The notes beneath the pieces are model-generated. The model was not told the origin of the DNA. It searched no databases and saw only the letters and a list, made by a program, of their open reading frames with translations. The translations under genes and the position numbers were made by a program. From contig CP142454.1 in assembly GCA_038049695.1 (NCBI GenBank), positions 90,542,501 to 90,606,500 of the forward strand: a stretch of 64,000 nt of DNA, written 5' to 3'. The stretch's first letter is position 1. Each line of letters opens with the position of its first letter. Below, piece by piece: positions 4,474 through 48,300 of the stretch. This stretch comes from Cinnamomum chago (lineage: Eukaryota > Streptophyta > Magnoliopsida > Laurales > Lauraceae).

Positions 4474-4507
4474 CTGCCTGGCCTGATGCGCGGGTACAGA
4501 AATTTCA

Positions 4508-24603: not shown

Positions 24604-24634
<31 letters not shown>

Positions 24635-26012
24635 ATGGATGCAAAGATGAATGCACAATGTGTATGTATGATGTCCTCAATCAGTTTTTAAATGAAAGCT
24701 CATAAATGTATGCCTAAGGCTATTGAAAGTTTTAGCTGATAAAAACATTTATGATTGAGGAAAGAATGCTAATCACATGTTAAAAATAACTTGTAAAAGA
24801 TATACATAAGTATTCTAAACAAGTTGTGAAATTCTAAGAACAAAACATGTGATGCATAGGGATGTCAATCAAATTAACAATGTAGCTCAATATACGTATG
24901 CTATAAGCATAAAACATAAAAATAGGTTTGATTGAAATTAGGGGACAAATCATATGTAATTATAAAATCAACTTGAAAATGATATACCTATCAAAGCAAG
25001 GCAAGTTGTGAAAATTTAAAACAATAGTACATATGATTTGTAAAGTTGTTGAATCCAAAACATAAGAAATATTTGAAAGAGATTTTCTTATGATGAAAAA
25101 CAACCATAGATTCAACCAAGTATAGGAATCATGTTACATATAATTTCAAAGAGCTTTTCATTCACATGATTTACTTAGATATACCAATTTAAGTACTACT
25201 TGGATTGAATAAAGGTGATGCATCCAAAACAATAAATCAATTCAAAAACATATACATGTTAAGGACATAACAAATCATAGTTTACCATGCTACAAAAGAT
25301 TTACCAAAAATAAAGCAAAGCATGAAAACATATGATTAAGAAAAGTAAAGCTTACTTAGAGATTTAAATTCATTAATCCAAGCTTTAGCTTTCCTAATGA
25401 CCCCTTTCATCCCTTAGCTCATTCCCCTTTGATTCGCCTCAAAACATCTCAAGGATGGCCTAAAAATCTCTAACTTTTGGCAAAGGAATGAACTAATATT
25501 TATAGCCAAAAACAGCCCAACGGCTAGTCCCCGGTCGACCCCATGACCCCCGGGTCGACCTGGCCTTCACAACGGTCATAAAACTGACCGTTTGAAAAAG
25601 GGCCAACGGCTCTTTACCCGGTCGACCCATTGTTTGCGCGGTCGACCAGGCCTGGGACCAAAATTCCCTAAAAATGTATCTTTCAAAGTATTTTCTCTTG
25701 GGAACTTTTGGGCCACTCAATCAAGCTTGGAAACATGATTTAAATCAAACTAAGTGGTTTAAAATCATGAAACATAAAAAACCTAAAATGATTTGAAAGA
25801 TTTAAAACATAGGCTAGCTTGATTTGATAAAACTCCTTTTCAAAATAAAATGCATCCAAGATAAAAATCAAAACATGCATAAATTAAGATTTCTAACAAT
25901 GCATGTGTAAATCAAGATTTCAAGTTTTACTAAAACAATGCATGTGTAAAAATTCAAATGATGCTAGAATGATAATGCATCCATCAAATTGCAATACACA
26001 AAATCCCTAACA
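24135..26012 (-). mobile_element. 3' LTR of element C
   Basis: It runs from TAAAAGTCCGGGG (was TGAAAG) to AAAATCCCTAACA. On the minus strand it starts TGTTAGGGATTTTG like the LTRs of E. It contains a (CA)n tract at 24607-24633, the palindrome cluster at 25528-25650, and a minus-strand TATA box, TATAAATATTAG, at 25494-25505. Confidence 0.9.
25494..25650 (-). promoter_or_regulatory. Promoter block of the C 3' LTR: palindromes upstream of TATA
   Basis: On the minus strand the order is palindromes, then CTATAAATATTAG. CCGGTCGACC or CGGGTCGACC units occur near 25530, 25550, 25618 and 25637. AACGGTCA and TGACCGTT form a hairpin near 25572-25591. The 5' LTR carries a different set of units (54481-54605). 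Confidence 0.7.
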
Positions 26013-26410: not shown

Positions 26411-26799
26411 CTACACACATGAAATACGGAAATTACCTTTTAGAAGCACCTGTTAACAAAAGAAATCGAAAATGAAATACATAACTGGCTATCATGTATG
26501 GAAGTAGTCTCTAAGGGTTCAAAGTCAATCCAAGGGTCAATTTGATCAAAACTAATACTTCCTATGAAGGTTTACACTCCCCCTCAATCCATTCTCTCCT
26601 TTTGTCAACATATTGACAAAGATTTAACTATTTGGCGCAAGAAGAAGATGGTTTTACCAATTGAGGGTAAACTTTCAAAGAAAGGATTAGACACATTTAA
26701 CTATAAAGCACAAAATGATCAAATTACCAAAAGAGCAAGGCCAAATAGAAAAGCAATCATGGATACCAATTGGAAAACAAAGAATACCAATTGAGATTC
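26411..26799 (-). other. Element C noncoding interval next to the polypurine tracts
   Basis: Collinear with 35900-36150 of E, including the reverse complement of TTGAGGGGGAGTGTAAACCT near 26575. The open frames here are short and not shared with E. Confidence 0.5.
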
Positions 26800-29030
26800 A
26801 AGGATAAGACTATAAAATCAATCACTCTAAAATGGAGTTATAAAGGATATAACTATTAAGATAAATCCAAATTAGAGCTATCCATGATATTATGGGGTAT
26901 ACTAAACATAGCATCAATCAATTTAACTATGAAAAACATATGCTATGAAAGTTTTGAAATCATTTCATTCAATCAATAAATATGACTATTAAGTGCAAGA
27001 TGAGTGAAATGAAATTCAAACATGAAGCCAACCTCAACTAATAACCAACCAAGATTATGAATACATAAACATGGTGGTCACGAGATTTACCTATAAGAAC
27101 AAGAGAGGTGGCAAACATGAAAATTATGATGCTAATGGAATGTGACATGGAATGAAAACATATAACTATCAAGTTCAATCTAATGTACACAAGGTCTATC
27201 ACATACACAAGATAAGACATCAATTGGATATGAAATCAATGGAAAATTATACCAAATGAAACCAATTGAATATGACAACATGATTAATAGCAAGGATGTG
27301 ACAAACACAAAATTCCATCAAGCATCATAAATGGATATTCATCACTTATAAAGATATAACTATTGAGCATAGTGATGAACAAGATAAATTGCAATGCAAA
27401 AGGATATAACTTGGTAATTGCATTCAAAGTGTCAAAATCATATGAATTCAACAACTAAGATATCCATCAAACATATAGATATACGAGGAATGGATTTCAA
27501 AGAGTTTCATATGATCAAGAACACTACTATGAAGTTGAAACATGTATAAGGATGACATCACTTAGAGAATTTACATGAATCAACATCATAACCATCCAAA
27601 AAGAAATGACTAGAAGGCATAGAGGATGGATTTGAGTTCTAGTATGGTTTCTACAAATATAATTAAGATCACAACCATACATAGAACAATTTGACATTTG
27701 CATAGAGAGGATCAATCAACACTCAAGATCTAACTCATACCATATCATCAATAAAGAATATAACTATGCAAGCACAAGAAGGTATGGAGTTAGAGGGACA
27801 TCATGGATCGCATATAGATGAAGATGGATCTATTAAGAACAATGGATTAATTCCAATTCATCTAAAATGATCCATTAACCTATCATGCAACATCTCCACT
27901 CTAGCAAATGTACTAAGCTTACAATGCAATGGGAAATGGATATGAGGATTATACCAAATGAGCTTAGCACACTAAATCACATATGTACTTTTTAGGCTCA
28001 AATGATAATAAAACAAAAGATTTTACTATAAAGCACATAAACAATCATCAATTTGCATTAATGAAAATATATACCAAGTTAGGCACAAACATGCAAATCA
28101 ATGAAACCATATCCAACCACGCAACGTAAGACATCAAAATCAATTTGCATAAAAAGAATGTAACTAAATGAGCAAATATGCAAATTGTTTGTAAAAAATA
28201 TTTCCTTCCAAATGATAAAATCATAATTAAGCACAAGGAAATAAATTCAAGGAAACTGCATCTATAAATACAACCAATAAAGCTTAGAACATGTTCCAAA
28301 GTTTTTCAAATCACTTCAATATTTAAAATTCCAACAAAGAATCATTTATAAAATTATGAACAAGCGATTTTGAAAAACATGAAGTATACTACTATAAATT
28401 TTCAATTTGTATTCTAAATATGACAATAGACACTCATACAAATTGACCACATATTTTCCATACCAAGAGATATAACTTGAAAAATCAATGGAAAACTTAA
28501 ATTGCTTCAAATCATTTGATTTACAAAAAAGATCTAATTATGACAATCATTAAATGATTTTCCAACATCAATTGATCATGAAAAATCTAGCTATGAAAGC
28601 TTTTGTAATCACAATCAATTGATCATGAATAGATATGCACTACAAGAGATAGAACTATATGAACAAAATGCAATTCCATCATGAAAATATTGCAATCAAG
28701 GGATTTTGAAAACCATGAGATATAACTTAAAAGTTCATGAAGACAAAATCAAATGATCACAAAGAAACATTGCATTTTAAGAGATGTGACTATAAAGAAA
28801 CAAAATGCAAAAGTAACATGACCAACAATTAGATATAACTAAAAAGAATAGGTTGGTCTAGAGAGGTTCAAGGCCATAAGGTTAGTCTAATAGTCTACCT
28901 TTGAAGATTCACCAAAGGTCTTGATTAGGTTGTCCTTGAGAGTTCAATTTGAGGACTCACCAACTCTTGGAGATATAACTCGAAAAAGTCTTAGAGTGGT
29001 GAAATGATACTTGGGGAAATTTCATTTTCA
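26800..29030 (-). repeat. Hairpin array of element C
   Basis: Short inverted repeats with 23-39 nt loops lie in a row: 26907-26947, 26962-27015, 27338-27379, 27636-27687, 27730-27793, 28141-28187, 28403-28445, 28454-28495 and 28771-28809. The loops carry GATATAACTAT-like sequence (AGTTATATC on the coding strand). Several arms and loop lengths are the same as in E: TTCATCACT with a 24-nt loop, and GTTCTAGTATGGTT with a 23-nt loop. No protein frame is maintained. Confidence 0.8.
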
Positions 29031-30651: not shown

Positions 30652-30784
30652 TGCCTGAGCTCGCTGAGTGCGGAAATCCCCTTTCCTTGCACATCTTTCA
30701 CTACATTCTTCTCCTTCTTCTCATCCATCAATCACACAAAAACCCTTGAGCCTACATGCTCACCAAGGTGCATCTCCATCATTT

Positions 30785-32667
30785 TGTTAGGGATTTTGTA
30801 ATTTGCAATTTGGTGGATGCATTTGCACTTTAGCATCATTTGAATTCTCACACTTGCATTGTTTTAGAAAACCTTGAAATTTAGTTTCATACATGCATAG
30901 CTTTTAAGATTTGGAAAAGTTCTTGTTTTATGCATGTTTTGGTTTTAAACTTGGATGCATTAGTTTTGAAACCCAAACTCTTTTGAAAACCTATTTCCTT
31001 GTGCAATATATTTGGAAAATCATCTTGACAATTTAGGTTTGAACTTTGCATACATTCATCCCTTCATAATCATTTGTGTATGCATTGTTTTTGAAAAAGG
31101 AGTTTTTAGAAATCAAGCTAGCCTATGGTTTAAAGTTTCAAACCATTTTAGGCTTTGGATGTTTCATATTTTTATACATCTTTGGATGATTTAAAACATG
31201 TGAAAAAGCTTGATTTTAATGGCCCAAAATATCCCCAAAGATAATCTTCAAGAAACCCAAAAAATGGGAATTTCTGGGCAGGCCCGGTCAACCGGCCGTG
31301 TATGGCCGGTCAACCGGCCAAGAGGCCCGGTCAACCGGCCAAACTGGCGGTTAACCGGACTGCTGAGGCTTCAACGGGCATTTTTATGACCGTTGTGCTT
31401 GGCCGGTTAACCTGCCTGTCATGGCCGGTCAACCGGCCAAACTAGCCGTTGGGCAGTTTTTGGTATTTAAATGAGCTCTTTCCTTTGTCTTTGGTTGGAG
31501 ATTTTTAAGCCTTCTTTGAGGAGCTTTGAGACAAGACAAAGGGGAGGAACTAAGAGAGGCTAAAGGGTCATTAAGTAAAGCTTAAGCTTGGATCAACTAA
31601 GTTAAATCTCCAAGTAAGTTTTACTTTGATTTAATCATTTGTTATGTGCTTTGTTTGAAACTTTGGAAATTGATTTCAAGCATGATAACAATGATGTGTT
31701 GAATCCATTCTTCCCTTCATCTTTGATATTCAAGAATTGGATTCATCACTTTGTTTTCAAACCAAGTTTTGTTTTAAACTTTCTTAATCATGTTTAGTCA
31801 TAAATCTTGGATTTCTTGTATTGCATGATTATATCACTTGGTTGAAACATTGCTTGTTGTTTTCATTCATTTAAACATTAGTAAAATTAATTTGGTTTTG
31901 AAAACAACATGCACATGCATCACATGTTCTAAATTAGCCATTTTCATATAACTTGTTAGTCCTTGATTTTCATGTCATAAACAAGTTGAATTTCATACAT
32001 GTGATTTGCATAAGACTTCAATCAATCTTTTATGAGCTTTAAACTTTGAATTGCTTTAAGCAATATATTTGATTAAGCTTTCTTTTTGAACTTGATTGAA
32101 GCCATCACACACACACACACCTCATAAGCATACATCTTTGCATTCATAGAGTGTTTGTGTGAGTTTAGTTTTCACTTTCATATTAGCCTATTCAAGAGGC
32201 AATTCCATTGAGCTTAAATTGTAATCTCTTAGAGTGTTCTTTTGTTAAGACACTTTCTTTGAGAAAACTATATTTGTAAAGGTTATTGCTAAGCCTAAGA
32301 AAAGCAACTTGTAAGGTTATTGCTTAGCCTTTGAAAAGCATCTTGTAAGGTTATTGCTTAGCCTAGAAAAGCACATTGTAAGGGTTATTGCTTAGCCTAG
32401 TAAAAAGCATACTTAGTGGAATCCGGTGGGGTGTTGGAGACACAAGCCGGTAGTGGATGTAGGCACGTTGGCCGAACCACTATAAATATTGTGTTGTGGT
32501 GCATGCTTTTGTGGTGATTGTTTATTTGAGCTTCCGCATTTTTTCTTATAATCACCACTTGTGACTAGTTTAGTTTAAGAAATTAAAATTGGTCATAATT
32601 AGTCATTAGTTGTAGCTCACCCTATTCACCCCCCCCCCTCTAGGGTTAGGATCCTCGTGGACTTTCA
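30785..32667 (+). mobile_element. LTR 1 of element E
   Basis: It runs from TGTTAGGGATTTTG to CTCGTGGACTTTCA, with poly-C (10) near 32629, a CA-rich microsatellite near 32105 and the promoter block at 31281-31471. Near 31023 it has G where LTR2 and LTR3 have A. Confidence 0.93.
31281..31471 (+). promoter_or_regulatory. Palindrome enhancer-like cluster and TATA box, E LTR 1
   Basis: GGCCGGTCAACCGGCC-type units (7-bp arms GGCCGGT/ACCGGCC) occur near 31282, 31302, 31323 and 31418, with GGTTAACCGG variants near 31347 and 31402. CAACGGGCAT and ATGACCGTTG flank the middle. TATTTAAA follows at 31464-31471. The same block recurs at 37078-37268 and 42878-43068. Confidence 0.75.
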
Positions 32668-32669
32668 AT

Positions 32670-32681
32670 TGGTATCAGAGC
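32670..32681 (+). other. Primer binding site, E copy 1 (tRNA-Met type)
   Basis: TGGTATCAGAGC starts 2 nt after the LTR and matches the 3' end of plant initiator tRNA-Met, the usual copia primer. The same site is at 38470-38481 in copy 2. Confidence 0.92.
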
Positions 32682-32782
32682 CAAGTGCTCTATCCCTTAG
32701 GATCAAGTGTTTGGAACTCTTGATTAGGTGTAAAAACCTAGAGTTAAAACCCTAGAGTTGTGCTTATTTGAAAATCATTAGA

Positions 32783-34180
32783 ATGGACTCCACTAGGCTA
32801 GACTTTGTAGATTCTTCTAGACCTCTCACTCTTCCTTCTATTAGAGATTCAAACCATCAATTAAATGAATATCAATTTGACTCAAAAGAGGAAGAAAATG
32901 AGTATGATGAAGATGATCTTCAACAAGCCTACAATGAATTATATACATTATCTACAAAGCTTGATAAAAGAAACAAAAGCTTAAGAGAAGAATCTATGAA
33001 TCTAACCAAAGATCTAGCCTCTTCAAAAGATGAACTTAGAGAGAAAGAAGAAGTAATAAAATGTCTAGACTCTAAGTTCATGATCTCTTTAAATAACCTA
33101 TCCAACATTCAAGATGAACTAAAAGAATTAAAGATGGGTTATGAAAATGTCAATAAGGAAAATTTAATTCTAAGAGATCAAATAAAAAGGCAAGACAAAG
33201 ACTTTAACAATTTAGAAGCCAAGTTGATTAAAAGTAAGTTAAAAACACAAGAGCTTGGATCTAATGTTGTTAATGAACTAAAGCTTGAATTAAAACTTGC
33301 CAATGAAGAGCTAAACAATTATAAGGAAATTGAAAATGAACTTTCAAAAGTTAAAAATGAAAATTCAATCCTTATAACCAAAGTCACTCAACTTGAAAAC
33401 TATAAACAAAAGTATGAGTGCAAGTTTACCCAAAGTGAAGAGAAACTTGAAAAATTATTCAAATTGGGTAAATCTCATGGAGATAGGACGGGTCTTGGAT
33501 TTAAAAGGAATATGACTTATGACCCTAAATTCACCAACACTTTTGTGAAAGGTGAGTCCTCATTCTCTAGCACTCACACTTCTTTGCCCAAAACAAAATG
33601 TAATTATTGTGGCATTGAAGGGCATTTTACATTTGAGTGCAAACTAAGGAAAAGAAGCTATGTGTCTAAACCCATCTTTGAACTCAAGAAAGTAAAATCA
33701 AACTTGAAGGGTAAGACACTAAAAATAAAGGAAGACTCCATAAAGCTTAAACAAGTTAAACCAATTAACAAGGAGTCTCCTAAGATAGATTCTAAAAAGC
33801 TTAAACAAGTTAAACCAAGCTTAAAAGAATCTATGAACAAAAAGCTTCTCAACCTACCTCCCTTAAGTCAAAACATGAAAGAACTTTTGAAGAAAATTAC
33901 TAAGTTAAATCTAAATTTCAAAAGTCAAAGAAAGGGAGAAGAAAAGAAGAAAAGAAAAACAAATCAATCCCCTAAGAAGCAAACCCACCAACATCAAAAG
34001 ACTAATCACCAGTCTAAGCCAAATTTAGTAAAATCTAAATATCATGGTGATAAGTTTAAGTTGAAAATTTATCAAGTAAAATCTCTTTTAGTTGGTGAGG
34101 ATTCCAAAATAGACCTCAAAGTTCAACCCTCCCAAGACCTTAGGTGGATTCCTAAAGTTATCTACTTAGACAAACCTTAG
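32783..34180 (+). CDS. Truncated copia/Sirevirus-type gag, copy 1
   Basis: The 465-residue frame starts at the first ATG (MDSTRLDFVDSS) about 100 nt after the PBS. An acidic start is followed by a long coiled coil (about residues 45-220), then KFTQSEEKLEKLFKLGKSHG and RTGLGFKRNMTYDPKF as found upstream of the zinc knuckle in copia gag, then the CCHC knuckle CNYCGIEGHFTFEC (about residue 273) and a lysine-rich tail. The N-terminal UBN2-like part of normal copia gag is absent. A nucleic-acid-binding structural protein is likely. No pol follows. Confidence 0.85.
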   Translation: MDSTRLDFVDSSRPLTLPSIRDSNHQLNEYQFDSKEEENEYDEDDLQQAYNELYTLSTKLDKRNKSLREESMNLTKDLASSKDELREKEEVIKCLDSKFMISLNNLSNIQDELKELKMGYENVNKENLILRDQIKRQDKDFNNLEAKLIKSKLKTQELGSNVVNELKLELKLANEELNNYKEIENELSKVKNENSILITKVTQLENYKQKYECKFTQSEEKLEKLFKLGKSHGDRTGLGFKRNMTYDPKFTNTFVKGESSFSSTHTSLPKTKCNYCGIEGHFTFECKLRKRSYVSKPIFELKKVKSNLKGKTLKIKEDSIKLKQVKPINKESPKIDSKKLKQVKPSLKESMNKKLLNLPPLSQNMKELLKKITKLNLNFKSQRKGEEKKKRKTNQSPKKQTHQHQKTNHQSKPNLVKSKYHGDKFKLKIYQVKSLLVGEDSKIDLKVQPSQDLRWIPKVIYLDKP

Positions 34181-34240
34181 GGTCTTGAACCTTCATTGAC
34201 CAACCTATTCTTTTTAAGTTAAATCACTTTGTTGGTCATG

Positions 34241-35960
34241 ATTGCATTTGCATTTTGTTTCTTTTAGTTAGATTTCTTAAAATGCATTGCTTCTTTATGA
34301 TCATTTGATTTTGGTTTCATGCACCATTCTAAGTTACATGTCATGGTTTTCAAAATCATTTGATTATAATTTCATCATGTTTGATTTGCTTTTTGCTCTC
34401 ATTTAAGTCATATGTTTTGCATTGCACTTCTACATGATCAATTGATTGTGATGTTAAAAGCTTTCATAGCTAATTTAGTCATGATCAATTGTTGTTAAAT
34501 CATTTGATGGATGTCTTAGTTAAATCCCTTTTGTAAATCAAATGATTTGATTCTATTCAAGTTTTTCCATGGTTTTATAAGTTAAACTTTTATATGGAAA
34601 ATTGTTTTGAAAAATCAACTTGTATGTGCTTCAATTAAGTTATATCTTTTCAAATACAATGTTGAAAATTGATCTTCCAAATCATTCTTTTTATGCTCAT
34701 TGTTGGATTTTGTTTGTCAAAATGATTTGAAGATTGTTTGAATGGAAATGCTCCATAACATCGTTAGTTATAATCTTCTAAGCATGTTCCATGTAATCAT
34801 TTCCTTCTCTTTTGGTTTCATTATATTAGAATTGGAAATGAATGTTGTTTGCATCTTTGCTTATTTAGTTATTCTTTTTATATGCAAATGACAATTGGTT
34901 CTATGTATGGTTGTATTCTTAGTTTTATTTTTGGAAACCATACTAGAACCCAAATCCATCCTCTATGTCTAATAGTCATTTCTTTTTGGATGGTTATGAT
35001 GTTGATTCATGTATACCTTCTTAATGTTGTCATCTTTATACATGTTTCAACTTCATAGTAGTGCTCTTGGTCATATGAACCTCTTTGAAATCCATTCCTT
35101 TTTCATAGTTATATCTCTTGTTTGATGGATATCTTAGTGTTGAATTCATATGATCTAGACACTTTGGAAATTGCATGCATTGCCTAGTAATAGTCTTTTG
35201 CATTGCAATTTACCTTGTTCATCACTATGCTCTATAGTTATATCTATATAAGTGATGAATATGCATTTATGATGTTTGATGGAGTTTGCCACATTCTTGC
35301 TCTTTATCATGTTATCAAATTCAATTGGTTTCTATTGATATAATTTTTGATTGATTTGATTTCTTACGAATGTGATAAACCTTGTGTGCATTGGATTGAA
35401 CTTGATATGTAATATGATTGTTCCATATCACACACCATTAGCATCATAATGTTCATGATTGCCACCTTTTTTGCTCTTATAGGTATATCTCATGACCACC
35501 ATATTTATGTATTCATAATCTTGGTTGGTTATTACTTGAGGTTGGCTTCATGCTTGAAATTCATTTCACTCATTCTTGCACATTAATAGTAACATTTATT
35601 GTTTGAATGAAATGATTTCAAAACTTACATAGCATATGATTTTCATAAGTTATATTGATTGATGCTATGTTTGAGTAAACCCCATTGCATCATGGATAGC
35701 TCTTATTTGGATTTTTCCTAATAGTAATATTCTTAAATCCATTTTAGAGTGATTGTGTTAATAGTCACATCCTTTAATCTCAATTGATATGTTTATTTCA
35801 ATTGGTATCCATGATCGTCTCTCTCATGAGACCTTGCTCTCTTTTGGTAATTTGATCATATGAGCCCTATAGTTATATGAATCTAATCCTTTCCTTGAAG
35901 TTGACCCTCACTTGGTTAAACCATCTACTTCTTGAATCTAATAGTTATATCTTGTCAAAA
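34241..35960 (+). repeat. Hairpin array of element E, copy 1
   Basis: Arms (left/right): 34249-34256/34279-34286; 34497-34508/34537-34548 (12 bp perfect); 34563-34570/34594-34601; 34616-34625/34654-34664; 34678-34686/34721-34729; 34742-34752/34781-34792; 34848-34854/34882-34888; 34897-34912/34936-34950; 35001-35015/35037-35051; 35168-35179/35199-35211; 35218-35226/35251-35259 (9 bp perfect); 35628-35635/35662-35669. Stems differ in sequence, but most loops contain a TTAGTTATATCTT-like core. No conserved protein frame occurs. Confidence 0.85.
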
Positions 35961-36180
35961 GCTTGACAAAAGAAGAGAATGGATTGAGGGGGAGTGTAAA
36001 CCTTCATAGGAAGAATTAGTTTTGATCAAATTCACCCTTGGATTGCTTTTGAGCCCTTAGAGTTAACTTCCATACATGATAGCCTGTTATGTATTTCATT
36101 TTCGATTTCATTTGTTAACAGGTGCTACTAAAGGTATTTTCCTTGTTTCATGTGTGTAGGTACCTTTGCAATTTAATGTC

Positions 36181-36581
36181 AAAGGGGGAGAGAGTTTAAG
36201 TACTCAAAGATCTCCTACTCATCAAAGGGGGAGAGAGTTCGAGAGTTCAAGTACTCAAAGATCTCCTACTCATCAAAGGGGGAGAAAGCTTTCAAGTTCT
36301 CAAGAGGAGAAAGAAGCATGGTCAAAGGGGGAGAGCAAATAGAAGAAAGAAAGCTTGGAGCTAAAGAAGATGCTTGTCTAAAGAGAGGAAGATGGAAAGA
36401 AAGCTTGAAGAATGATCAAGCTCCAAGCATCAAGAAGATTGAAGAAAAGAGCCCAAGAGCCCAAGCTAAGAGAAGAAGCATCCAAGAAGATTTCAAGACT
36501 TGTCCAGCTTAGGGGGAGCTGAAGACTAAGTGTGAAATGTCAATGATGAGTAAGTTGCCATCAAATTGCAAAGGGGGAGAT
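36181..36581 (+). repeat. Multiple polypurine tracts, E copy 1
   Basis: AAAGGGGGAG occurs at 36181, 36224, 36275, 36324 and 36570, the last directly before LTR2. The first three lie in a duplicated unit of about 50 bp (AGTACTCAAAGATCTCC). A 64-residue frame here only reflects purine-rich sequence. Confidence 0.88.
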
Positions 36582-38467
36582 TGTTAGGGATTTTGTAATT
36601 TGCAATTTGGTGGATGCATTTGCACTTTAGCATCATTTGAATTCTCACACTTGCATTGTTTTAGAAAACCTTGAAATTTAGTTTCATACATGCATAGCTT
36701 TTAAGATTTGGAAAAGTTCTTGTTTTATGCATGTTTTGGTTTTAAACTTGGATGCATTAGTTTTGAAACCCAAACTCTTTTGAAAACCTATTTCCTTGTG
36801 CAATATATTTGGAAAATCATCTTAACAATTTAGGTTTGAACTTTGCATACATTCATCCCTTCATAATCATTTGTGTATGCATTGTTTTTGAAAAAGGAGT
36901 TTTTAGAAATCAAGCTAGCCTATGGTTTAAAGTTTCAAACCATTTTAGGCTTTGGATGTTTCATATTTTTATACATCTTTGGATGATTTAAAACATGTGA
37001 AAAAGCTTGATTTTAATGGCCCAAAATATCCCCAAAGATAATCTTCAAGAAACCCAAAAAATGGGAATTTCTGGGCAGGCCCGGTCAACCGGCCGTGTAT
37101 GGCCGGTCAACCGGCCAAGAGGCCCGGTCAACCGGCCAAACTGGCGGTTAACCGGACTGCTGAGGCTTCAACGGGCATTTTTATGACCGTTGTGCTTGGC
37201 CGGTTAACCTGCCTGTCATGGCCGGTCAACCGGCCAAACTAGCCGTTGGGCAGTTTTTGGTATTTAAATGAGCTCTTTCCTTTGTCTTTGGTTGGAGATT
37301 TTTAAGCCTTCTTTGAGGAGCTTTGAGACAAGACAAAGGGGAGGAACTAAGAGAGGCTAAAGGGTCATTAAGTAAAGCTTAAGCTTGGATCAACTAAGTT
37401 AAATCTCCAAGTAAGTTTTACTTTGATTTAATCATTTGTTATGTGCTTTGTTTGAAACTTTGGAAATTGATTTCAAGCATGATAACAATGATGTGTTGAA
37501 TCCATTCTTCCCTTCATCTTTGATATTCAAGAATTGGATTCATCACTTTGTTTTCAAACCAAGTTTTGTTTTAAACTTTCTTAATCATGTTTAGTCATAA
37601 ATCTTGGATTTCTTGTATTGCATGATTATATCACTTGGTTGAAACATTGCTTGTTGTTTTCATTCATTTAAACATTAGTAAAATTAATTTGGTTTTGAAA
37701 ACAACATGCACATGCATCACATGTTCTAAATTAGCCATTTTCATATAACTTGTTAGTCCTTGATTTTCATGTCATAAACAAGTTGAATTTCATACATGTG
37801 ATTTGCATAAGACTTCAATCAATCTTTTATGAGCTTTAAACTTTGAATTGCTTTAAGCAATATATTTGATTAAGCTTTCTTTTTGAACTTGATTGAAGCC
37901 ATCACACACACACACACCTCATAAGCATACATCTTTGCATTCATAGAGTGTTTGTGTGAGTTTAGTTTTCACTTTCATATTAGCCTATTCAAGAGGCAAT
38001 TCCATTGAGCTTAAATTGTAATCTCTTAGAGTGTTCTTTTGTTAAGACACTTTCTTTGAGAAAACTATATTTGTAAAGGTTATTGCTAAGCCTAAGAAAA
38101 GCAACTTGTAAGGTTATTGCTTAGCCTTTGAAAAGCATCTTGTAAGGTTATTGCTTAGCCTAGAAAAGCACATTGTAAGGGTTATTGCTTAGCCTAGTAA
38201 AAAGCATACTTAGTGGAATCCGGTGGGGTGTTGGAGACACAAGCCGGTAGTGGATGTAGGCACGTTGGCCGAACCACTATAAATATTGTGTTGTGGTGCA
38301 TGCTTTTGTGGTGATTGTTTATTTGAGCTTCCGCATTTTTTCTTATAATCACCACTTGTGACTAGTTTAGTTTAAGAAATTAAAATTGGTCATAATTAGT
38401 CATTAGTTGTAGCTCACCCTATTCACCCCCCCCCCCCCTCTAGGGTTAGGATCCTCGTGGACTTTCA
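36582..38467 (+). mobile_element. LTR 2 (shared, central) of element E
   Basis: PPT on the left and PBS on the right, no flanking duplication, 13 C in the poly-C tract. It acts as 3' LTR of copy 1 and 5' LTR of copy 2. Confidence 0.93.
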
Positions 38468-38582
38468 ATTGGTATCAGAGCCAAGTGCTCTATCCCTTAG
38501 GATCAAGTGTTTGGAACTCTTGATTAGGTGTAAAAACCTAGAGTTAAAACCCTAGAGTTGTGCTTATTTGAAAATCATTAGA

Positions 38583-39980
38583 ATGGACTCCACTAGGCTA
38601 GACTTTGTAGATTCTTCTAGACCTCTCACTCTTCCTTCTATTAGAGATTCAAACCATCAATTAAATGAATATCAATTTGACTCAAAAGAGGAAGAAAATG
38701 AGTATGATGAAGATGATCTTCAACAAGCCTACAATGAATTATATACATTATCTACAAAGCTTGATAAAAGAAACAAAAGCTTAAGAGAAGAATCTATGAA
38801 TCTAACCAAAGATCTAGCCTCTTCAAAAGATGAACTTAGAGAGAAAGAAGAAGTAATAAAATGTCTAGACTCTAAGTTCATGATCTCTTTAAATAACCTA
38901 TCCAACATTCAAGATGAACTAAAAGAATTAAAGATGGGTTATGAAAATGTCAATAAGGAAAATTTAATTCTAAGAGATCAAATAAAAAGGCAAGACAAAG
39001 ACTTTAACAATTTAGAAGCCAAGTTGATTAAAAGTAAGTTAAAAACACAAGAGCTTGGATCTAATGTTGTTAATGAACTAAAGCTTGAATTAAAACTTGC
39101 CAATGAAGAGCTAAACAATTATAAGGAAATTGAAAATGAACTTTCAAAAGTTAAAAATGAAAATTCAATCCTTATAACCAAAGTCACTCAACTTGAAAAC
39201 TATAAACAAAAGTATGAGTGCAAGTTTACCCAAAGTGAAGAGAAACTTGAAAAATTATTCAAATTGGGTAAATCTCATGGAGATAGGACGGGTCTTGGAT
39301 TTAAAAGGAATATGACTTATGACCCTAAATTCACCAACACTTTTGTGAAAGGTGAGTCCTCATTCTCTAGCACTCACACTTCTTTGCCCAAAACAAAATG
39401 TAATTATTGTGGCATTGAAGGGCATTTTACATTTGAGTGCAAACTAAGGAAAAGAAGCTATGTGTCTAAACCCATCTTTGAACTCAAGAAAGTAAAATCA
39501 AACTTGAAGGGTAAGACACTAAAAATAAAGGAAGACTCCATAAAGCTTAAACAAGTTAAACCAATTAACAAGGAGTCTCCTAAGATAGATTCTAAAAAGC
39601 TTAAACAAGTTAAACCAAGCTTAAAAGAATCTATGAACAAAAAGCTTCTCAACCTACCTCCCTTAAGTCAAAACATGAAAGAACTTTTGAAGAAAATTAC
39701 TAAGTTAAATCTAAATTTCAAAAGTCAAAGAAAGGGAGAAGAAAAGAAGAAAAGAAAAACAAATCAATCCCCTAAGAAGCAAACCCACCAACATCAAAAG
39801 ACTAATCACCAGTCTAAGCCAAATTTAGTAAAATCTAAATATCATGGTGATAAGTTTAAGTTGAAAATTTATCAAGTAAAATCTCTTTTAGTTGGTGAGG
39901 ATTCCAAAATAGACCTCAAAGTTCAACCCTCCCAAGACCTTAGGTGGATTCCTAAAGTTATCTACTTAGACAAACCTTAG
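38583..39980 (+). CDS. Truncated copia/Sirevirus-type gag, copy 2
   Basis: The same 465-residue protein as copy 1 (32783-34180), identical over its length in translation. Same coiled coil and CCHC knuckle, and no pol downstream. Confidence 0.85.
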   Translation: MDSTRLDFVDSSRPLTLPSIRDSNHQLNEYQFDSKEEENEYDEDDLQQAYNELYTLSTKLDKRNKSLREESMNLTKDLASSKDELREKEEVIKCLDSKFMISLNNLSNIQDELKELKMGYENVNKENLILRDQIKRQDKDFNNLEAKLIKSKLKTQELGSNVVNELKLELKLANEELNNYKEIENELSKVKNENSILITKVTQLENYKQKYECKFTQSEEKLEKLFKLGKSHGDRTGLGFKRNMTYDPKFTNTFVKGESSFSSTHTSLPKTKCNYCGIEGHFTFECKLRKRSYVSKPIFELKKVKSNLKGKTLKIKEDSIKLKQVKPINKESPKIDSKKLKQVKPSLKESMNKKLLNLPPLSQNMKELLKKITKLNLNFKSQRKGEEKKKRKTNQSPKKQTHQHQKTNHQSKPNLVKSKYHGDKFKLKIYQVKSLLVGEDSKIDLKVQPSQDLRWIPKVIYLDKP

Positions 39981-40040
39981 GGTCTTGAACCTTCATTGAC
40001 CAACCTATTCTTTTTAAGTTAAATCACTTTGTTGGTCATG

Positions 40041-41760
40041 ATTGCATTTGCATTTTGTTTCTTTTAGTTAGATTTCTTAAAATGCATTGCTTCTTTATGA
40101 TCATTTGATTTTGGTTTCATGCACCATTCTAAGTTACATGTCATGGTTTTCAAAATCATTTGATTATAATTTCATCATGTTTGATTTGCTTTTTGCTCTC
40201 ATTTAAGTCATATGTTTTGCATTGCACTTCTACATGATCAATTGATTGTGATGTTAAAAGCTTTCATAGCTAATTTAGTCATGATCAATTGTTGTTAAAT
40301 CATTTGATGGATGTCTTAGTTAAATCCCTTTTGTAAATCAAATGATTTGATTCTATTCAAGTTTTTCCATGGTTTTATAAGTTAAACTTTTATATGGAAA
40401 ATTGTTTTGAAAAATCAACTTGTATGTGCTTCAATTAAGTTATATCTTTTCAAATACAATGTTGAAAATTGATCTTCCAAATCATTCTTTTTATGCTCAT
40501 TGTTGGATTTTGTTTGTCAAAATGATTTGAAGATTGTTTGAATGGAAATGCTCCATAACATCGTTAGTTATAATCTTCTAAGCATGTTCCATGTAATCAT
40601 TTCCTTCTCTTTTGGTTTCATTATATTAGAATTGGAAATGAATGTTGTTTGCATCTTTGCTTATTTAGTTATTCTTTTTATATGCAAATGACAATTGGTT
40701 CTATGTATGGTTGTATTCTTAGTTTTATTTTTGGAAACCATACTAGAACCCAAATCCATCCTCTATGTCTAATAGTCATTTCTTTTTGGATGGTTATGAT
40801 GTTGATTCATGTATACCTTCTTAATGTTGTCATCTTTATACATGTTTCAACTTCATAGTAGTGCTCTTGGTCATATGAACCTCTTTGAAATCCATTCCTT
40901 TTTCATAGTTATATCTCTTGTTTGATGGATATCTTAGTGTTGAATTCATATGATCTAGACACTTTGGAAATTGCATGCATTGCCTAGTAATAGTCTTTTG
41001 CATTGCAATTTACCTTGTTCATCACTATGCTCTATAGTTATATCTATATAAGTGATGAATATGCATTTATGATGTTTGATGGAGTTTGCCACATTCTTGC
41101 TCTTTATCATGTTATCAAATTCAATTGGTTTCTATTGATATAATTTTTGATTGATTTGATTTCTTACGAATGTGATAAACCTTGTGTGCATTGGATTGAA
41201 CTTGATATGTAATATGATTGTTCCATATCACACACCATTAGCATCATAATGTTCATGATTGCCACCTTTTTTGCTCTTATAGGTATATCTCATGACCACC
41301 ATATTTATGTATTCATAATCTTGGTTGGTTATTACTTGAGGTTGGCTTCATGCTTGAAATTCATTTCACTCATTCTTGCACATTAATAGTAACATTTATT
41401 GTTTGAATGAAATGATTTCAAAACTTACATAGCATATGATTTTCATAAGTTATATTGATTGATGCTATGTTTGAGTAAACCCCATTGCATCATGGATAGC
41501 TCTTATTTGGATTTTTCCTAATAGTAATATTCTTAAATCCATTTTAGAGTGATTGTGTTAATAGTCACATCCTTTAATCTCAATTGATATGTTTATTTCA
41601 ATTGGTATCCATGATCGTCTCTCTCATGAGACCTTGCTCTCTTTTGGTAATTTGATCATATGAGCCCTATAGTTATATGAATCTAATCCTTTCCTTGAAG
41701 TTGACCCTCACTTGGTTAAACCATCTACTTCTTGAATCTAATAGTTATATCTTGTCAAAA
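40041..41760 (+). repeat. Hairpin array of element E, copy 2
   Basis: Repeats the array of copy 1 shifted by 5800 nt, for example the 12-bp stem at 40297-40308/40337-40348 and the TTCATCACT stem at 41018-41026/41051-41059. Confidence 0.85.
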
Positions 41761-41980
41761 GCTTGACAAAAGAAGAGAATGGATTGAGGGGGAGTGTAAA
41801 CCTTCATAGGAAGAATTAGTTTTGATCAAATTCACCCTTGGATTGCTTTTGAGCCCTTAGAGTTAACTTCCATACATGATAGCCTGTTATGTATTTCATT
41901 TTCGATTTCATTTGTTAACAGGTGCTACTAAAGGTATTTTCCTTGTTTCATGTGTGTAGGTACCTTTGCAATTTAATGTC

Positions 41981-42381
41981 AAAGGGGGAGAGAGTTTAAG
42001 TACTCAAAGATCTCCTACTCATCAAAGGGGGAGAGAGTTCGAGAGTTCAAGTACTCAAAGATCTCCTACTCATCAAAGGGGGAGAAAGCTTTCAAGTTCT
42101 CAAGAGGAGAAAGAAGCATGGTCAAAGGGGGAGAGCAAATAGAAGAAAGAAAGCTTGGAGCTAAAGAAGATGCTTGTCTAAAGAGAGGAAGATGGAAAGA
42201 AAGCTTGAAGAATGATCAAGCTCCAAGCATCAAGAAGATTGAAGAAAAGAGCCCAAGAGCCCAAGCTAAGAGAAGAAGCATCCAAGAAGATTTCAAGACT
42301 TGTCCAGCTTAGGGGGAGCTGAAGACTAAGTGTGAAATGTCAATGATGAGTAAGTTGCCATCAAATTGCAAAGGGGGAGAT
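41981..42381 (+). repeat. Multiple polypurine tracts, E copy 2
   Basis: Same set as copy 1: AAAGGGGGAG at 41981, 42024, 42075, 42124 and 42370, directly before LTR3. Confidence 0.88.
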
Positions 42382-44269
42382 TGTTAGGGATTTTGTAATT
42401 TGCAATTTGGTGGATGCATTTGCACTTTAGCATCATTTGAATTCTCACACTTGCATTGTTTTAGAAAACCTTGAAATTTAGTTTCATACATGCATAGCTT
42501 TTAAGATTTGGAAAAGTTCTTGTTTTATGCATGTTTTGGTTTTAAACTTGGATGCATTAGTTTTGAAACCCAAACTCTTTTGAAAACCTATTTCCTTGTG
42601 CAATATATTTGGAAAATCATCTTAACAATTTAGGTTTGAACTTTGCATACATTCATCCCTTCATAATCATTTGTGTATGCATTGTTTTTGAAAAAGGAGT
42701 TTTTAGAAATCAAGCTAGCCTATGGTTTAAAGTTTCAAACCATTTTAGGCTTTGGATGTTTCATATTTTTATACATCTTTGGATGATTTAAAACATGTGA
42801 AAAAGCTTGATTTTAATGGCCCAAAATATCCCCAAAGATAATCTTCAAGAAACCCAAAAAATGGGAATTTCTGGGCAGGCCCGGTCAACCGGCCGTGTAT
42901 GGCCGGTCAACCGGCCAAGAGGCCCGGTCAACCGGCCAAACTGGCGGTTAACCGGACTGCTGAGGCTTCAACGGGCATTTTTATGACCGTTGTGCTTGGC
43001 CGGTTAACCTGCCTGTCATGGCCGGTCAACCGGCCAAACTAGCCGTTGGGCAGTTTTTGGTATTTAAATGAGCTCTTTCCTTTGTCTTTGGTTGGAGATT
43101 TTTAAGCCTTCTTTGAGGAGCTTTGAGACAAGACAAAGGGGAGGAACTAAGAGAGGCTAAAGGGTCATTAAGTAAAGCTTAAGCTTGGATCAACTAAGTT
43201 AAATCTCCAAGTAAGTTTTACTTTGATTTAATCATTTGTTATGTGCTTTGTTTGAAACTTTGGAAATTGATTTCAAGCATGATAACAATGATGTGTTGAA
43301 TCCATTCTTCCCTTCATCTTTGATATTCAAGAATTGGATTCATCACTTTGTTTTCAAACCAAGTTTTGTTTTAAACTTTCTTAATCATGTTTAGTCATAA
43401 ATCTTGGATTTCTTGTATTGCATGATTATATCACTTGGTTGAAACATTGCTTGTTGTTTTCATTCATTTAAACATTAGTAAAATTAATTTGGTTTTGAAA
43501 ACAACATGCACATGCATCACATGTTCTAAATTAGCCATTTTCATATAACTTGTTAGTCCTTGATTTTCATGTCATAAACAAGTTGAATTTCATACATGTG
43601 ATTTGCATAAGACTTCAATCAATCTTTTATGAGCTTTAAACTTTGAATTGCTTTAAGCAATATATTTGATTAAGCTTTCTTTTTGAACTTGATTGAAGCC
43701 ATCACACACACACACACCTCATAAGCATACATCTTTGCATTCATAGAGTGTTTGTGTGAGTTTAGTTTTCACTTTCATATTAGCCTATTCAAGAGGCAAT
43801 TCCATTGAGCTTAAATTGTAATCTCTTAGAGTGTTCTTTTGTTAAGACACTTTCTTTGAGAAAACTATATTTGTAAAGGTTATTGCTAAGCCTAAGAAAA
43901 GCAACTTGTAAGGTTATTGCTTAGCCTTTGAAAAGCATCTTGTAAGGTTATTGCTTAGCCTAGAAAAGCACATTGTAAGGGTTATTGCTTAGCCTAGTAA
44001 AAAGCATACTTAGTGGAATCCGGTGGGGTGTTGGAGACACAAGCCGGTAGTGGATGTAGGCACGTTGGCCGAACCACTATAAATATTGTGTTGTGGTGCA
44101 TGCTTTTGTGGTGATTGTTTATTTGAGCTTCCGCATTTTTTCTTATAATCACCACTTGTGACTAGTTTAGTTTAAGAAATTAAAATTGGTCATAATTAGT
44201 CATTAGTTGTAGCTCACCCTATTCACCCCCCCCCCCCCCCTCTAGGGTTAGGATCCTCGTGGACTTTCA
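42382..44269 (+). mobile_element. LTR 3 of element E
   Basis: It ends CTCGTGGACTTTCA before the CATTT duplication, with 15 C in the poly-C tract near 44227. Like LTR2 it has A at the position where LTR1 has G. Confidence 0.93.
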
Positions 44270-45346
44270 CATTTCACACATTTAAATCCAATAAAAAACC
44301 AAATCATGAAGGATGTAAACAATGTAAGCACAATTTCTAAAATACAATGGAAACCAAAATACAATGCACATGAAGCCTAAAAAGATCACTTGCCTTGACC
44401 AAAGCTAAACACTCCTCCTCAAGTACTTCCTCAAGCTAATCAACACTACAAGAAAATCCAAGAGAAAACCACACAACTCACTAAATCTTGAAAACAAGAA
44501 ACCCATTTAGAAAAAGGGTTGAAACTAGGAAAATCATGATCTTAAAGGACTAAAAAGACTCCATGAAAGATGTGGGTTGAAGCTCTTACCTAGGAATGGT
44601 CACACAAGAGAGAAGAGAGGAAATGTAGATCTTGTCCCAAAAGAAACTCCAAGAAACTTGTACCAATAGAGAGCTTGCAATGAGATGGAGAAGATGATGA
44701 ACTTGAAACTTTATTTGGAGCTCTCTAACTAGATCATGCAAGAGGAAATGAAGAGAAAGGGAAAGAGGGGTTTTCCTTGCCCTAGCTTCAGAAATTGCAG
44801 AGATTTGGGGGAATGAATGGAAGAGAGGAAGAAAGGGTTTAAGTGAAGGAAAATGGGTCCCAACTAACTTGAACTTGAAATGGCTAAAACATGACCTTGT
44901 GGGCCTCGGATGACTTCGACGAAGAAGGATAAAACGATCGTCGAAATATCTAGTTTCCAAAAAGTATATTTTTGACATAGTTTTGAAGTCTCGAAAATTG
45001 TGTCCAGATTTGTGCAAGAAAGACAATTTTACCCTCTTTGGCCAAAACTTGGGTTTTTGGGCTTCAAACATGAATGGGCTTAATACGAAAGTTGTAACAC
45101 GTCGAAATATCAATCAAATGAAATCAAAATCACAATCACACGGAAATCGATACGATCTTCCCAAGCTCACACGTGCACTCAGGCCATCCTGAGTGTGTCT
45201 AACTAATATTAAACGTTCTCAAAATTACCAAAGCTATATCCAAGACTAAAACTAATCACTTCTAACCCAACAATAACTAAACCCACTTAGGACTAAACAC
45301 ATACTAATCACACACTAATCGGATTGGTCTGGGTCGGGGTCTAACA

Positions 45347-45383: not shown

Positions 45384-48300
45384 TCAAATAATTACCTCTG
45401 GTAAAAGCTGTGGATACTTCCTTTGCACTTGCTCTCTCAATTCCCAGGTGGCTTCCTCTGGCTCGTGATTTTCCCAAAGTACCTTGACCCAATGAATAGT
45501 CCGGTTTCTCAATTCTTGCTCTTTGGTGTCAATGATCTTGATCGGTCTTTCCACATACGAGGCATCTTCCCGAATCTCTAAAGGCTCATGTTGTAGAATG
45601 TGTGCAGGACTAGAGACATACTTCTTGAGCATCGAAACGTGAAAAACATTGTGTACCCCGGAGAACTCCGGCGGTAACGCAAGTCTATAAGCTACATCTC
45701 CAATCTTGCTCAAAATCTCATACGGACCAATAAACCTTCTAGACAATTTGCCCTTCTGTCCAAACCTCAAGGTTCCCCTAGTTGGTGAGACTTTCAAAAA
45801 CACCTTGTCACCCACTTGAAACTGCAATTCTCTTCTGCGAGTGTCTGCATAACTCTTCTGCCTACTTCGGGCAATCTTCAACCTTTCCTGAATCAACTTG
45901 ACATTTTCACTTGTCTCTCCAACTATCGTCGGTCCATGGAAACTACGTTCACCGACTTCTTCCCAGCAAACCGGAGTTCTGCATCTTCTACCATAAAGTG
46001 CCTCGAAAGGTGCCATACCGATGCTAGAGTGGTAACTATTGTTATAGGCAAATTCACAAAGAGGTAAGCACTCATCCCACTGAATCTTGAAATCCAATAC
46101 ACATGCACGCAACATGTCTTCGAGAGTCTGTATCGTCCTTTCTGACTGACCATCGGTCTGAGGATGATAAGCTGTGCTGAACTGAAGTTTGGTACCCATC
46201 GACTCATGAAGAGTTTTCCAAAACTTTGAAACAAATCTACTGTCTCTGTCTGAAGTAATGGAGACAGGCTGACCATGCTTACTAACAATCTCATCAACAA
46301 ACAACTTCGCAAGCGGTGCCATATGCATCATGTTCCCTGTCTTCATCGGAATGAAGTGAGCAGACTTTGTCAGACGATCTACAATGATCCAAATTGCATT
46401 ATTTCCTTTCTTAGTGTTAGGCAAACTGGAGACGAAATCCATGGTAATGTGCTCCCATTTCCACTCCGGAATCTCCAAAGGCTGTAACAAACCTGGAGGC
46501 TTCTGATGCTCTGCCTTGATCAACTGACACGTTAGGCAACGAGATACAAAAGCTGCTATCTCTCTCTTCATGTTATTCCACCAAAACCTATTCTTCAAAT
46601 TATGGTACATTTTCGTGCTACCCGGATGCATAGAATATCTCGTACTGTGAGCTTCGTTCATTATCTCATTCTTCAAATCATCCACATTTGGCACACACAA
46701 CCGGTCACGGAAATACAATATCTCATTCACCATCTTGAAATCGGGGCGTTCTGCAATAACTTCTACTATCTTGGCCAAGTCTGGGTCTTGCATCTGATTT
46801 TCCTTAATCTTCTGGATGAAGGTAGGTTCTGATACTGTCATGTTCGCTAACATCGCACCCAATCTCAGGGTTTGTACCTCTACACCCAACTCTTCGAACT
46901 GCTGTAAGACACCGATTCCTCTCAAATTAGCCATAACCACTGATTTCCTGCTCAAGGCATCAGCTACCACATTCACTTTGCCTGGATGATACTTGATCGG
47001 AAAGTCATAATCTTTGATATATTCCATCCACCTCCTCTGCCTCATGTTCAAATCCTTCTGAGAGAACAAATATTGCAAACTTCTGTGATCTGAATGGACC
47101 TCAAACTTCTCTCCGTAGAGGTAGTGTCTCCACATCTTCAATGCGAAAACAACTGCTGCCAACTCCAAGTCGTGAGTCGCATAATTCTTCTCGTGGTCCT
47201 TCAGCTGTCTCGAGCCATAAGCAATCACCTTGCCATCTTGCATCAATACACAACCTAGTCCCACATTCGAAGCATCTGTGTAAACAATAAATCCGCCGTT
47301 GCCCGATGGTAATGTAAGGATTGGGGCTGTGGTTAACCTTCCTTTCAACTCTTGGAAACTGGTTTCACACTGATCAGTCCAAACAAATGGGACATTCTTC
47401 CTAGTCAACTTTGTCAACGGGGCTGCAATGGACGAAAAACCTTGGACAAATCTTCTGTAATAGCCTGCTAAACCCAAAAAGCTTCTAATTTCTGTCACAC
47501 TGCTTGGCCTTGCCCAACTAACAACTGCCTCTATCTTGGCTGGATCAACTGCTAAACCTTCTCTGGAGATGATGTGGCCTAGAAAAGCAACTTGCTCTAA
47601 CCAGAATTCGCACTTACTGAGTTTTGCATATAACTGGTTGTCCCTCAAGAGCTGCAACGCTGTCCTCAAATGTTCTTCATGTTCCTTCTTACTCTTAGAA
47701 TATACAAGGACATCATCAATAAATACTACTGTGGAATGATCCAAATATGGTGCAAAGACCTTGTTCATCAAAGCCATAAAGACTGCTGGTGCATTTGTCA
47801 AACCAAAGGGCATCACTAAGAACTCATAGTGCCCATATCTTGTTCTAAAGGCTGTCTTTTGAACATCTGAGTCTCTAACTCTCAACTGATGGTACCCTGA
47901 CCTCAAGTCTATCTTGGAAAAATAGGCTGCTCCTTGTAATTGGTCAAACAATTCATCTATCCTTGGCAAAGGATACTTGTTCTTCACTGTCACATGGTTC
48001 AACTTCCTGTAGTCTATGCACATTCTCAGGCTTCCATCCTTCTTCTTCACAAATAACACTGGTGCTCCCCACGGTGAAACACTTGGCCTAATAAAACCTT
48101 TGCTCAACAAATCTTGCAATTGGAGCTTTAGCTCACCCATTTCTGCTGGAGCCATCCTATATGGTGCAATCGAGATCGGAGCTGTCCCTGGAAGAAGTTC
48201 AATTGTGAACTCAACTTCTCTAATTGGTGGTAAACCCGGGATTTCTTCTGGAAAAACATCCGGAAATTCACACACAATGGGGATATCCTCCACCCCTTGG

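Follow-up and report, generated by a model that had tools for sequence, protein, structure and literature searches.

Introduction

Sireviruses, of the Ty1/copia group (Pseudoviridae), display a characteristic set of features, as laid out in PMC2829016: multiple polypurine tracts (PPTs), an inverted repeat around the PPT/3′ LTR junction, an AT/TG attachment, CGG-CCG palindromic boxes in the LTR, and a C-rich integrase signal. TR-GAG elements, such as AT5TE33540, have two LTRs and a single gag ORF without pol, and are thought to be mobilized by a partner (PMC8704663). Cassandra forms tandem LTR-int arrays (PMC7215508). In a different setting, many stem-loops of ssRNA viruses (MS2, HBV, enterovirus-E, and others) present a common loop motif to the capsid protein, e.g., -RGAG- in HBV.

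The window, i.e., the whole stretch of DNA analyzed, is 64,000 nt of Cinnamomum chago (GCA_038049695.1, CP142454.1:90,542,501–90,606,500, forward strand). It contains two elements, called E and D, in which a row of hairpins with a recurring loop motif occupies non-coding internal sequence. The evidence for the array, and a proposal for its role, are analyzed below.

Element E and Its Sirevirus-Type Ends

E has an LTR-int-LTR-int-LTR tandem layout, extends from 30785 to 44269, and has CATTT at both flanks. Its units are 99.9% identical (30784–38470 vs 36581–44273). Because the LTR copies are near-identical, at 1883 of 1884 aligned sites in the first pair and 1887 of 1887 in the second, the insertion is considered recent. 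The 5′ LTR (30785–32667, + strand, as are all parts of E) reads TGTTAGGG...CTTTCA and includes palindromic CGG-CCG boxes and, near its end, a C-rich integrase-signal-like run. The second LTR, placed by pairwise comparison of LTRs, extends from 36582 to 38467, and the third, placed with the CATTT flanks, from 42382 to 44269.

Each internal part consists of a primer site, one gag-like ORF, a T-rich non-coding region, and a purine-rich GGGGGAG stretch. In the first unit, the order is as follows. The segment TGGTATCAGAGCC at 32670–32682 is the putative primer-binding site. The gag-like ORF, 465 aa from its ATG, extends from 32783 to 34180. The non-coding array of 22 hairpins lies at 34181–35975, where 44% of the bases are T. 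A purine-rich region with repeated GGGGGAG tracts follows at 35976–36581. The second unit has another copy of the gag-like ORF with an identical translation (38583–39980) and a second copy of the array (39981–41775).

The ends of E match the published Sirevirus features against which they were compared. Several GGGGGAG-type PPT copies precede the 3′ LTR, together with an AT/TG attachment; an inverted repeat, CATCAAATTGCAAA/TTTGCAATTTGGTG (36560–36620), flanks the last PPT and has its right arm within the 3′ LTR; and the LTR includes the CGG-CCG boxes and the C-rich signal. Four to six GGGGGAG copies are also found in each of the eight array-bearing pieces fetched downstream of other gag-bearing copies. 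Ty1/copia pol is absent from E, there being a single ORF of at least 120 aa between 32668 and 36581; E is therefore called Sirevirus-derived rather than autonomous.

The surroundings are nested: E sits inside another LTR element, and that element inside D (24137–54965). The LTR element hosting E has a 1563-aa gag-pol ORF at 45384–50075, presumably Ty3-type, judging by its motifs. Further related fragments, about 75–86% identical to E or to each other, are present at 61138–63111 and 3058–5080.

The Gag-Like Protein and Its Relatives

The 465-aa product has a CCHC zinc knuckle at residues 270–297 (24.2 bits against a cut-off of 27, E 3.2e-05) and a basic tail. Long helices are predicted at residues 43–151 and 158–228, in a structure model that is poor overall (mean pLDDT 51.7). 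No capsid-domain or UBN2 match to the ORF was found in Pfam, and a PDB profile search with the protein gave no match. NCBIfam SMC coiled-coil matches were weak, far under cut-off, and were rejected. The ORF may correspond to the C-terminal half of Sirevirus Gag.

A protein search for relatives outside the host genome, with 7995 candidates scored, returned five gag relatives at 56–83% identity and with E of at most 0.001. When a diverged relative, P0002, served as the query, each of the 130 matches listed lay in a gag-length frame of 451–534 aa (8306 candidates, 85 of them scored); stops interrupt some of the matched stretches. These frames, together with the termini, PPTs, and LTR boxes, fit the earlier note's description of E as a gag-only Sirevirus derivative. 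Among the 130 matches listed, the gag search gave gag-length frames only, and no autonomous partner was identified. By gag alignment, no locus encoding gag relatives was found outside the host genome in viral_contigs or genome_contigs; a search of viral_contigs for the PPT-region pattern likewise found nothing. An RVT_2 search of the host genome gave 150 scored matches of 16771 candidates.

Tandem layouts may be seen elsewhere in the genome. Longer runs of gag matches at constant spacing occur at C9:32407325 (four), C10:54489377, C9:35800878, and C4:95372707 (three each), and RVT_2 matches run at constant spacing from C5:21564560 onward, about every 5455 bp, and from C7:25056752 onward.

The Hairpin Array

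An independent stem search of 34181–35975 finds 22 non-overlapping, collinear hairpins. The earlier note had reported at least 12 inverted repeats in the non-coding half of E, starting at 34241. Its count is borne out, as 15 of the 22 lie inside 34241–35960 with arms of at least 7 nt and loops of 19–34 nt; its start is not, as the hairpins begin at 34197. The total hairpin score of the array, 469.5, exceeds all of 40 dinucleotide shuffles (mean 311.6, sd 34.2, maximum 377). Twelve array hairpins score at least 20, against a mean of 5.0 and a maximum of 10 in the shuffles.

An excess of this kind is not peculiar to the array. The gag ORF scores 323.5 and the LTR 596, above shuffle maxima of 263.5 and 419, respectively; the 3′ PPT region, at 110 against a shuffle mean of 113.7, shows no excess. 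Span-limited folding gives sense z values of −8.2 for the E array and −8.9 for the D array, and antisense values, −10.9 and −7.7, that are as extreme. The gag ORF (−7.2) and the LTR (−9.3) are similar, and the 3′ region is at +0.65. Inverted-repeat counts and folding energy were accordingly rejected as proof of the array, the antisense strand, gag, and LTR being equally unusual. What singles out the array is its loop sequence, not its inverted-repeat content or folding alone.

In genome copies, the hairpins are mostly retained. Candidates, unverified as copies, numbered 4419 (E array) and 3919 (D array) at first look in the host assembly (1.06 Gb); 40 of each were scored. Thirty-six E-like copies were fetched and 33 were aligned to E, with L003, L025, and L036 left out for short coverage. 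Most of the 22 hairpins, 18 in all, persist in 27–33 of the 33 copies. Two hairpins are poorly kept (34735–34799 in 6 of 33 copies, 35403–35430 in 7) and two are intermediate (35450–35498 in 16, 35851–35920 in 19).

Hairpin 1 (34197–34238), with the stem GACCAAC/GTTGGTC and AAGTTAAATC in its loop, is found in 32 of 33 copies and is kept in E, in D, and in the short-array group described below. The hairpin at 34494–34551, loop AGTTAAATC, is kept by all 33, as is the one at 35216–35261, in which TGTTCATCACT/AGTGATGAATA encloses AGTTATATC. The same loop, AGTTATATC, occurs at 35087–35133, where the stem is present in 28 of 33 copies and the motif is deleted in 8 of the 22 sequences compared, D included. 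Three hairpins near the 3′ end are each kept by 32 of 33 copies, as follows: 35558–35618, with AGTAACATT in E and AGTCATATT or AGTCACATT in others; 35627–35670, loop AGTTATATT, the outer pair of which is A-T in 29 of 55 sequences and T-A in 6 of 55; and 35695–35754, loop AGTAATATT in E and AGTTATATC in D.

Conserved structure extends over more of the sense RNA and is densest in the array. In 20 copies, the RNA of the gag ORF also has conserved hairpins; exceptions are 33547–33582, kept by none of the 20, and 34133–34187, kept by one and cut by the alignment edge. In the LTR leader, a hairpin at 31565–31632 (+ strand) has AAGTTAAATC in its loop, and the motif is present in all 14 aligned sequences, i.e., E and the 13 of 20 LTR copies taken into the alignment. 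In D, the motif is present in the 5′ LTR; the 3′ LTR reads ATTTAAATC. The leader stem has different letters in L051, L053, and D, and in single-sequence folds the hairpin still forms, with part of the motif paired. The gag ORF hairpins, the LTR leader hairpin, and the gag-less subfamily bearing an array all go beyond what the earlier note had claimed.

The Loop Motif

The most enriched 7-mer common to the E and D arrays is AGTTATA. Extended to AGT[ACT]A[ACGT]AT[CT], i.e., AGTNANATY, the motif occurs 11 times in E and 14 times in D in the sense orientation and never in antisense; in 500 shuffles, the average count is 0.28 for E and 0.47 for D, and the highest is 4 and 3, respectively. The gag ORF has four strict motifs in sense and two in antisense. 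The strict motif is present in 9 of the 22 E loops, a sequence within two mismatches of AGTTATATC in 12, and one or the other in 13. The earlier note had described a constant loop shared by most hairpins; "most" is just reached, but the loop is degenerate rather than constant. The motif also goes with structure, in that flanking stems are stronger at motif sites than elsewhere (circular-shift fraction 0.0006 in E and 0.002 in D, with sites taken as those within two mismatches, 18 in E and 25 in D).

The strand preference holds copy by copy. The 34 sequences of the E family have 8–13 sense motifs each, with no antisense motif in 32 of them and one in 2. The 12 D copies have 12–17 sense motifs each and no antisense motif. 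The motif is, in essence, confined to the sense strand.

Within the E family, variation at 11 orthologous sites is unevenly distributed over the motif, with the proviso that sites were picked by their match to the motif on E and D, which builds in some bias toward conservation. Mean pi is 0.054, 0.031, 0.083, 0.065, and 0.016 at positions 1, 2, 3, 5, and 7; it is 0.189 and 0.174 at positions 4 and 6, 0.140 and 0.150 at positions 8 and 9, and 0.073–0.325 over 12 flanking positions. A occupies position 7 in 99% of motif instances from the E family and in 100% of those from the D family. In E, variation within a site thus mirrors the differences between hairpins, as would be expected of a recognition site. 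In D (15 sites), pi is 0–0.079 at all motif positions and 0.021–0.134 in the flanks; the loop contrast is weaker there because position 4 is invariable (pi 0.010).

These results bear on whether the hairpins mainly shape the RNA, through compaction, protection from nucleases or small RNAs, or loop-loop dimerization, and bind no specific protein. Hairpins are indeed not confined to the array but extend into gag and LTR, with folding z of about −7 to −9 in each, and 9 of the 22 loops lack the motif. On the other hand, a role of that sort leaves the position-specific conservation of the loop motif in the E family unexplained, and on inspection the motif is hardly self-complementary, so that we judge RNA shaping an unlikely main function.

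Conservation of the Stems

Stem conservation was measured as shared variants per site, where "shared" means present in at least four copies for the E family and the pooled set, at least three for gag, and at least two or three for D. Because stems were chosen on E and D themselves, changes private to E or D are under-counted in stems, and because the copies are related, mask shifts and Fisher tests overstate independence; the values that follow are to be read accordingly. In E, the rate of shared variants per site is 0.071 for stems, 0.133 for spacers, and 0.205 for loops; of 1727 mask shifts, 1 gives a stem value as low as that observed. Singletons follow the same order (0.173, 0.228, and 0.297), and the shared-to-singleton contrast is not significant for stems vs spacers (p 0.22), with p 0.036 for stems vs loops. 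In D, shared variants in at least two copies amount to 0.039 per site in stems, 0.099 in spacers, and 0.080 in loops, with 3 of 2434 mask shifts as low. Singletons in D are near even (0.161, 0.188, and 0.178), and the shared-to-singleton contrast of stem vs spacer gives a Fisher p of 0.003. For the 55 pooled array sequences, the same contrast is not significant (p 0.14). In the gag ORF, shared variants are reduced in stems (0.090 vs 0.177 outside) and singletons equally so (0.072 vs 0.154). Given the non-significant E and pooled contrasts and the equally reduced gag singletons, part of the stem signal may reflect lower mutability or the fact that stems were picked on E itself.

The same figures bear on a neutral origin, in which template switching by the reverse transcriptase creates and repairs functionless inverted repeats in AU-rich sequence. 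Template correction can keep inverted-repeat arms matched without selection; the composition is AT-rich, and the E shared-to-singleton contrast is non-significant. Correction of arms should not, however, lower the per-site rate, and in D, shared variants are less than half as frequent in stems as in spacers, with singletons near even. The loop motif is also conserved in the E family. A neutral origin therefore seems to us very improbable.

The kinds of change within stems are informative about the molecule under selection. A transition in a Watson-Crick pair yields either an A-C mismatch or a G-U pair, the latter tolerated by RNA. In the E family, stem transitions are G-U:A-C 20:1 when shared and 25:20 when rare (p 0.0013); for the hairpins of the gag ORF, where shared means at least three of 20 copies, they are 17:5 when shared and 3:11 when rare. 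The 55 pooled sequences give 28:8 for shared changes vs 35:26 for singletons (p 0.049), with a control ratio of 162:105 when partners are slid by 1–3 columns. In D, shared changes stand at 10:5 in at least three copies and 12:12 in at least two, with rare changes at 29:37 and 27:30. Mutational bias does not explain the G-U excess, since shared changes at unpaired sites, scored against the commonest base, lean the opposite way (T>C plus G>A 60, C>T plus A>G 37). The direction of the asymmetry is mostly consistent, and we give it moderate weight. The G-U and A-C counts of E and D taken as single sequences were set aside as uninformative (17:8 together, where composition predicts about 1.6–1.8:1). 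Shared double Watson-Crick changes number five, against 0–3 with slid partners. True compensatory changes are few, and sequence conservation makes up most of the signal.

Selection might instead act on DNA, either as cruciforms or as palindromes recognized by a DNA-binding protein. Antisense folding is equally extreme, and palindromic DNA boxes are a feature of Sirevirus LTRs (PMC2829016). Such selection accords poorly with a motif essentially confined to one strand and with the shared stem transitions of the E array and gag, and loops of 20–35 nt are probably ill-suited to cruciform extrusion; we assign it only a slight chance. The strand specificity of the motif and the G-U over A-C asymmetry together favor RNA. 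The selection on structure put forward in the earlier note is supported across copies, along with the loop motif, and RNA is favored over cruciform DNA; the G-U part of the case is weaker in the pooled set and absent in D at the two-copy threshold.

Arrays Without Gag and Gag Without the Array

Element D lies on the − strand. Its 5′ LTR is at 53091–54965 and its 3′ LTR, placed by LTR comparison, at 24137–26012; D is split by an LTR element inserted at about 29020–52992, and ATTTC is seen by eye at both edges. Its hairpin array (26586–28960) is longer than that of E, and there is no gag. D has LTRs, a PBS, a PPT, and between the latter two a long internal region with no ORF of at least 120 aa, which places it among LARDs. 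All 40 scored D matches (of 3919 candidates) are 95–100% identical, D itself among them. No gag match is present in the 12 fetched D pieces, and the 5′ UTR piece of D ends about 20 nt before the array in 11 of the 12. Since subfamily D, gag-less in the sampled copies, has the longer array, a cis role for the array is likely.

The reverse arrangement also occurs. Among 16 regions fetched downstream of further gag copies, an E/D array is present in eight and absent from eight. In the latter, the short-array group, hairpin 1 is kept and a few more hairpins, built on different stems, are spread across about 430 nt. In this group, 119 alifold pairs include 6 compensatory and 9 one-sided changes, with 23 of 951 cells broken, as computed without control. 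Because half of these gag-bearing copies have a short hairpin run instead, the array is not essential in one fixed form.

Segments of a second, related ORF follow the short array in five of the eight copies. In L069, the second ORF past gag begins at about 1257, beyond palindromic CGG-CCG-like boxes, i.e., in the env position; it is at similar places in L073, L070, and L084. It starts with MARTKQTARRPPKKSK in L069 and L073, with MAGNKQTARR in L070, and with LARTKQTSRR in L084; to our eye, MARTKQTARRPPKKSK resembles a histone H3 tail. In L083, LTR-like boxes and an integrase-signal-like run, CACCCCCCTCTAGGG, are found at about 530–1030, between gag and the first PPT.

An array without an ORF, as in D, would suit binding by a host RNA-binding protein acting in export, stability, localization, or translation, rather than by a Gag-derived protein. 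Many host RNA-binding proteins recognize short, AU-rich, degenerate motifs, and the loop motif is of this type. Against this, the accompanying zinc-knuckle ORF keeps a constant length and the LTR leader has a motif hairpin, both of which fit self-recognition at least equally well. We regard a host binder as a minority prospect, and an unlikely one.

The hairpins might also be small-RNA precursors or RNA-processing signals (miRNA-like hairpins, splicing, 3′ end formation). Plant miRNA precursors are hairpins, and there is a weak Rfam MIR395 match in the D array (24 bits vs a cut-off of 56). Splice-site-like sequences, TTTGTTAACAG/GTGC and TGTGTGTAG/GTACC, occur 3′ of the array (36080–36170) and are kept in D; given these, the T-rich array could be intronic. 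The pattern of differing stems and a shared loop is, however, the reverse of that in miRNA families. The three Rfam matches in 24000–44300 (E 0.42–0.67) are all far below gathering scores, which gives no described family with a conserved stem. We consider such precursors or signals highly improbable.

Proposed Role of the Array

Several points are established: the array exists; copies have conserved its stems and, within the E family, its loop motif; this motif is found almost exclusively on the sense strand; and the array is also present in a large gag-less subfamily. To account for these facts, we tentatively propose, at somewhat less than even confidence, that selection has maintained on the sense RNA a row of short hairpins, more than half of them with a variant of AGTNANATY in the loop, and that it serves as a multivalent array for protein recognition or packaging. 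Such an array would act in cis to direct the RNA into virus-like particles or RNPs. The helical, zinc-knuckle, gag-derived protein of the E subfamily would be the most likely binder; it may bind its own RNA and, in trans, the gag-less RNA of D. Capsid and pol would be supplied by an autonomous Sirevirus partner. Dimerization, packaging, and binding of the element's own protein, the roles suggested in the earlier note, likewise remain conjectural.

A more elaborate form of the proposal, which we offer as a doubtful one, is a parasitic RNA-recognition system of three levels, in which an adapter from E reads the loops and D parasitizes E. That is, E, a pol-less Sirevirus derivative, would encode a capsid-less adapter, the coiled coil of which could dock on the partner's Gag while the zinc knuckle reads AGTNANATY loops. 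The array of such loops in E would then be a dedicated packaging tag, and D would have lost all of its internal region but the primer site, the tag array, and the polypurine tracts.

To our knowledge, how the RNAs of pol-less or gene-less plant retrotransposons get chosen for reverse transcription is an open question. The non-coding region described here makes it testable, as it offers countable loops, a short motif, conserved stems, an adjoining candidate protein, and a natural gene-less subfamily.

Comparison with Known Systems

The earlier note knew of no described Sirevirus feature of this kind. In agreement, no description of such a hairpin array in LTR retrotransposons was found in the open-licence PMC full text searched, including PMC2829016, PMC8704663, PMC5738225, PMC11963269, and PMC7215508.

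With LTRs, one gag-like ORF, and no pol, E may be akin to TR-GAG elements. It differs in that a hairpin array occupies the place of pol and in that its ORF lacks a capsid-domain Pfam match. D resembles LARDs and TRIMs in having no ORF of at least 120 aa between PBS and PPT, and the tandem LTR-int arrays of Cassandra (PMC7215508) recall the layout seen here. The structure described for Cassandra is a super-loop with the two LTRs as its stem; a row of hairpins with a common loop motif is not mentioned in the passages of PMC7215508 consulted. E shares with Sireviruses the PPTs, junction inverted repeat, AT/TG attachment, LTR boxes, and C-rich signal (PMC2829016), but lacks pol, and the word "hairpin" occurs 0 times in the main text of PMC2829016. 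Retand (Ty3) likewise has a long 3′ internal region with repeat arrays; these are tandem repeats of sequence, accompanied by antisense ORFs, and "hairpin" and "inverted repeat" each occur 0 times in PMC11963269.

The dispersed packaging signals of ssRNA viruses are alike in design, in that the E array consists of many stem-loops with a common loop motif, in 13 of 22 loops. The viral signals were found by SELEX, cross-linking, and assembly assays, whereas the E array was found by sequence analysis; moreover, E is an LTR retrotransposon, and its hairpins are densest in a dedicated region. If packaging is indeed what the array tags the RNA for, LTR retrotransposons would join ssRNA viruses as carriers of dispersed packaging signals.
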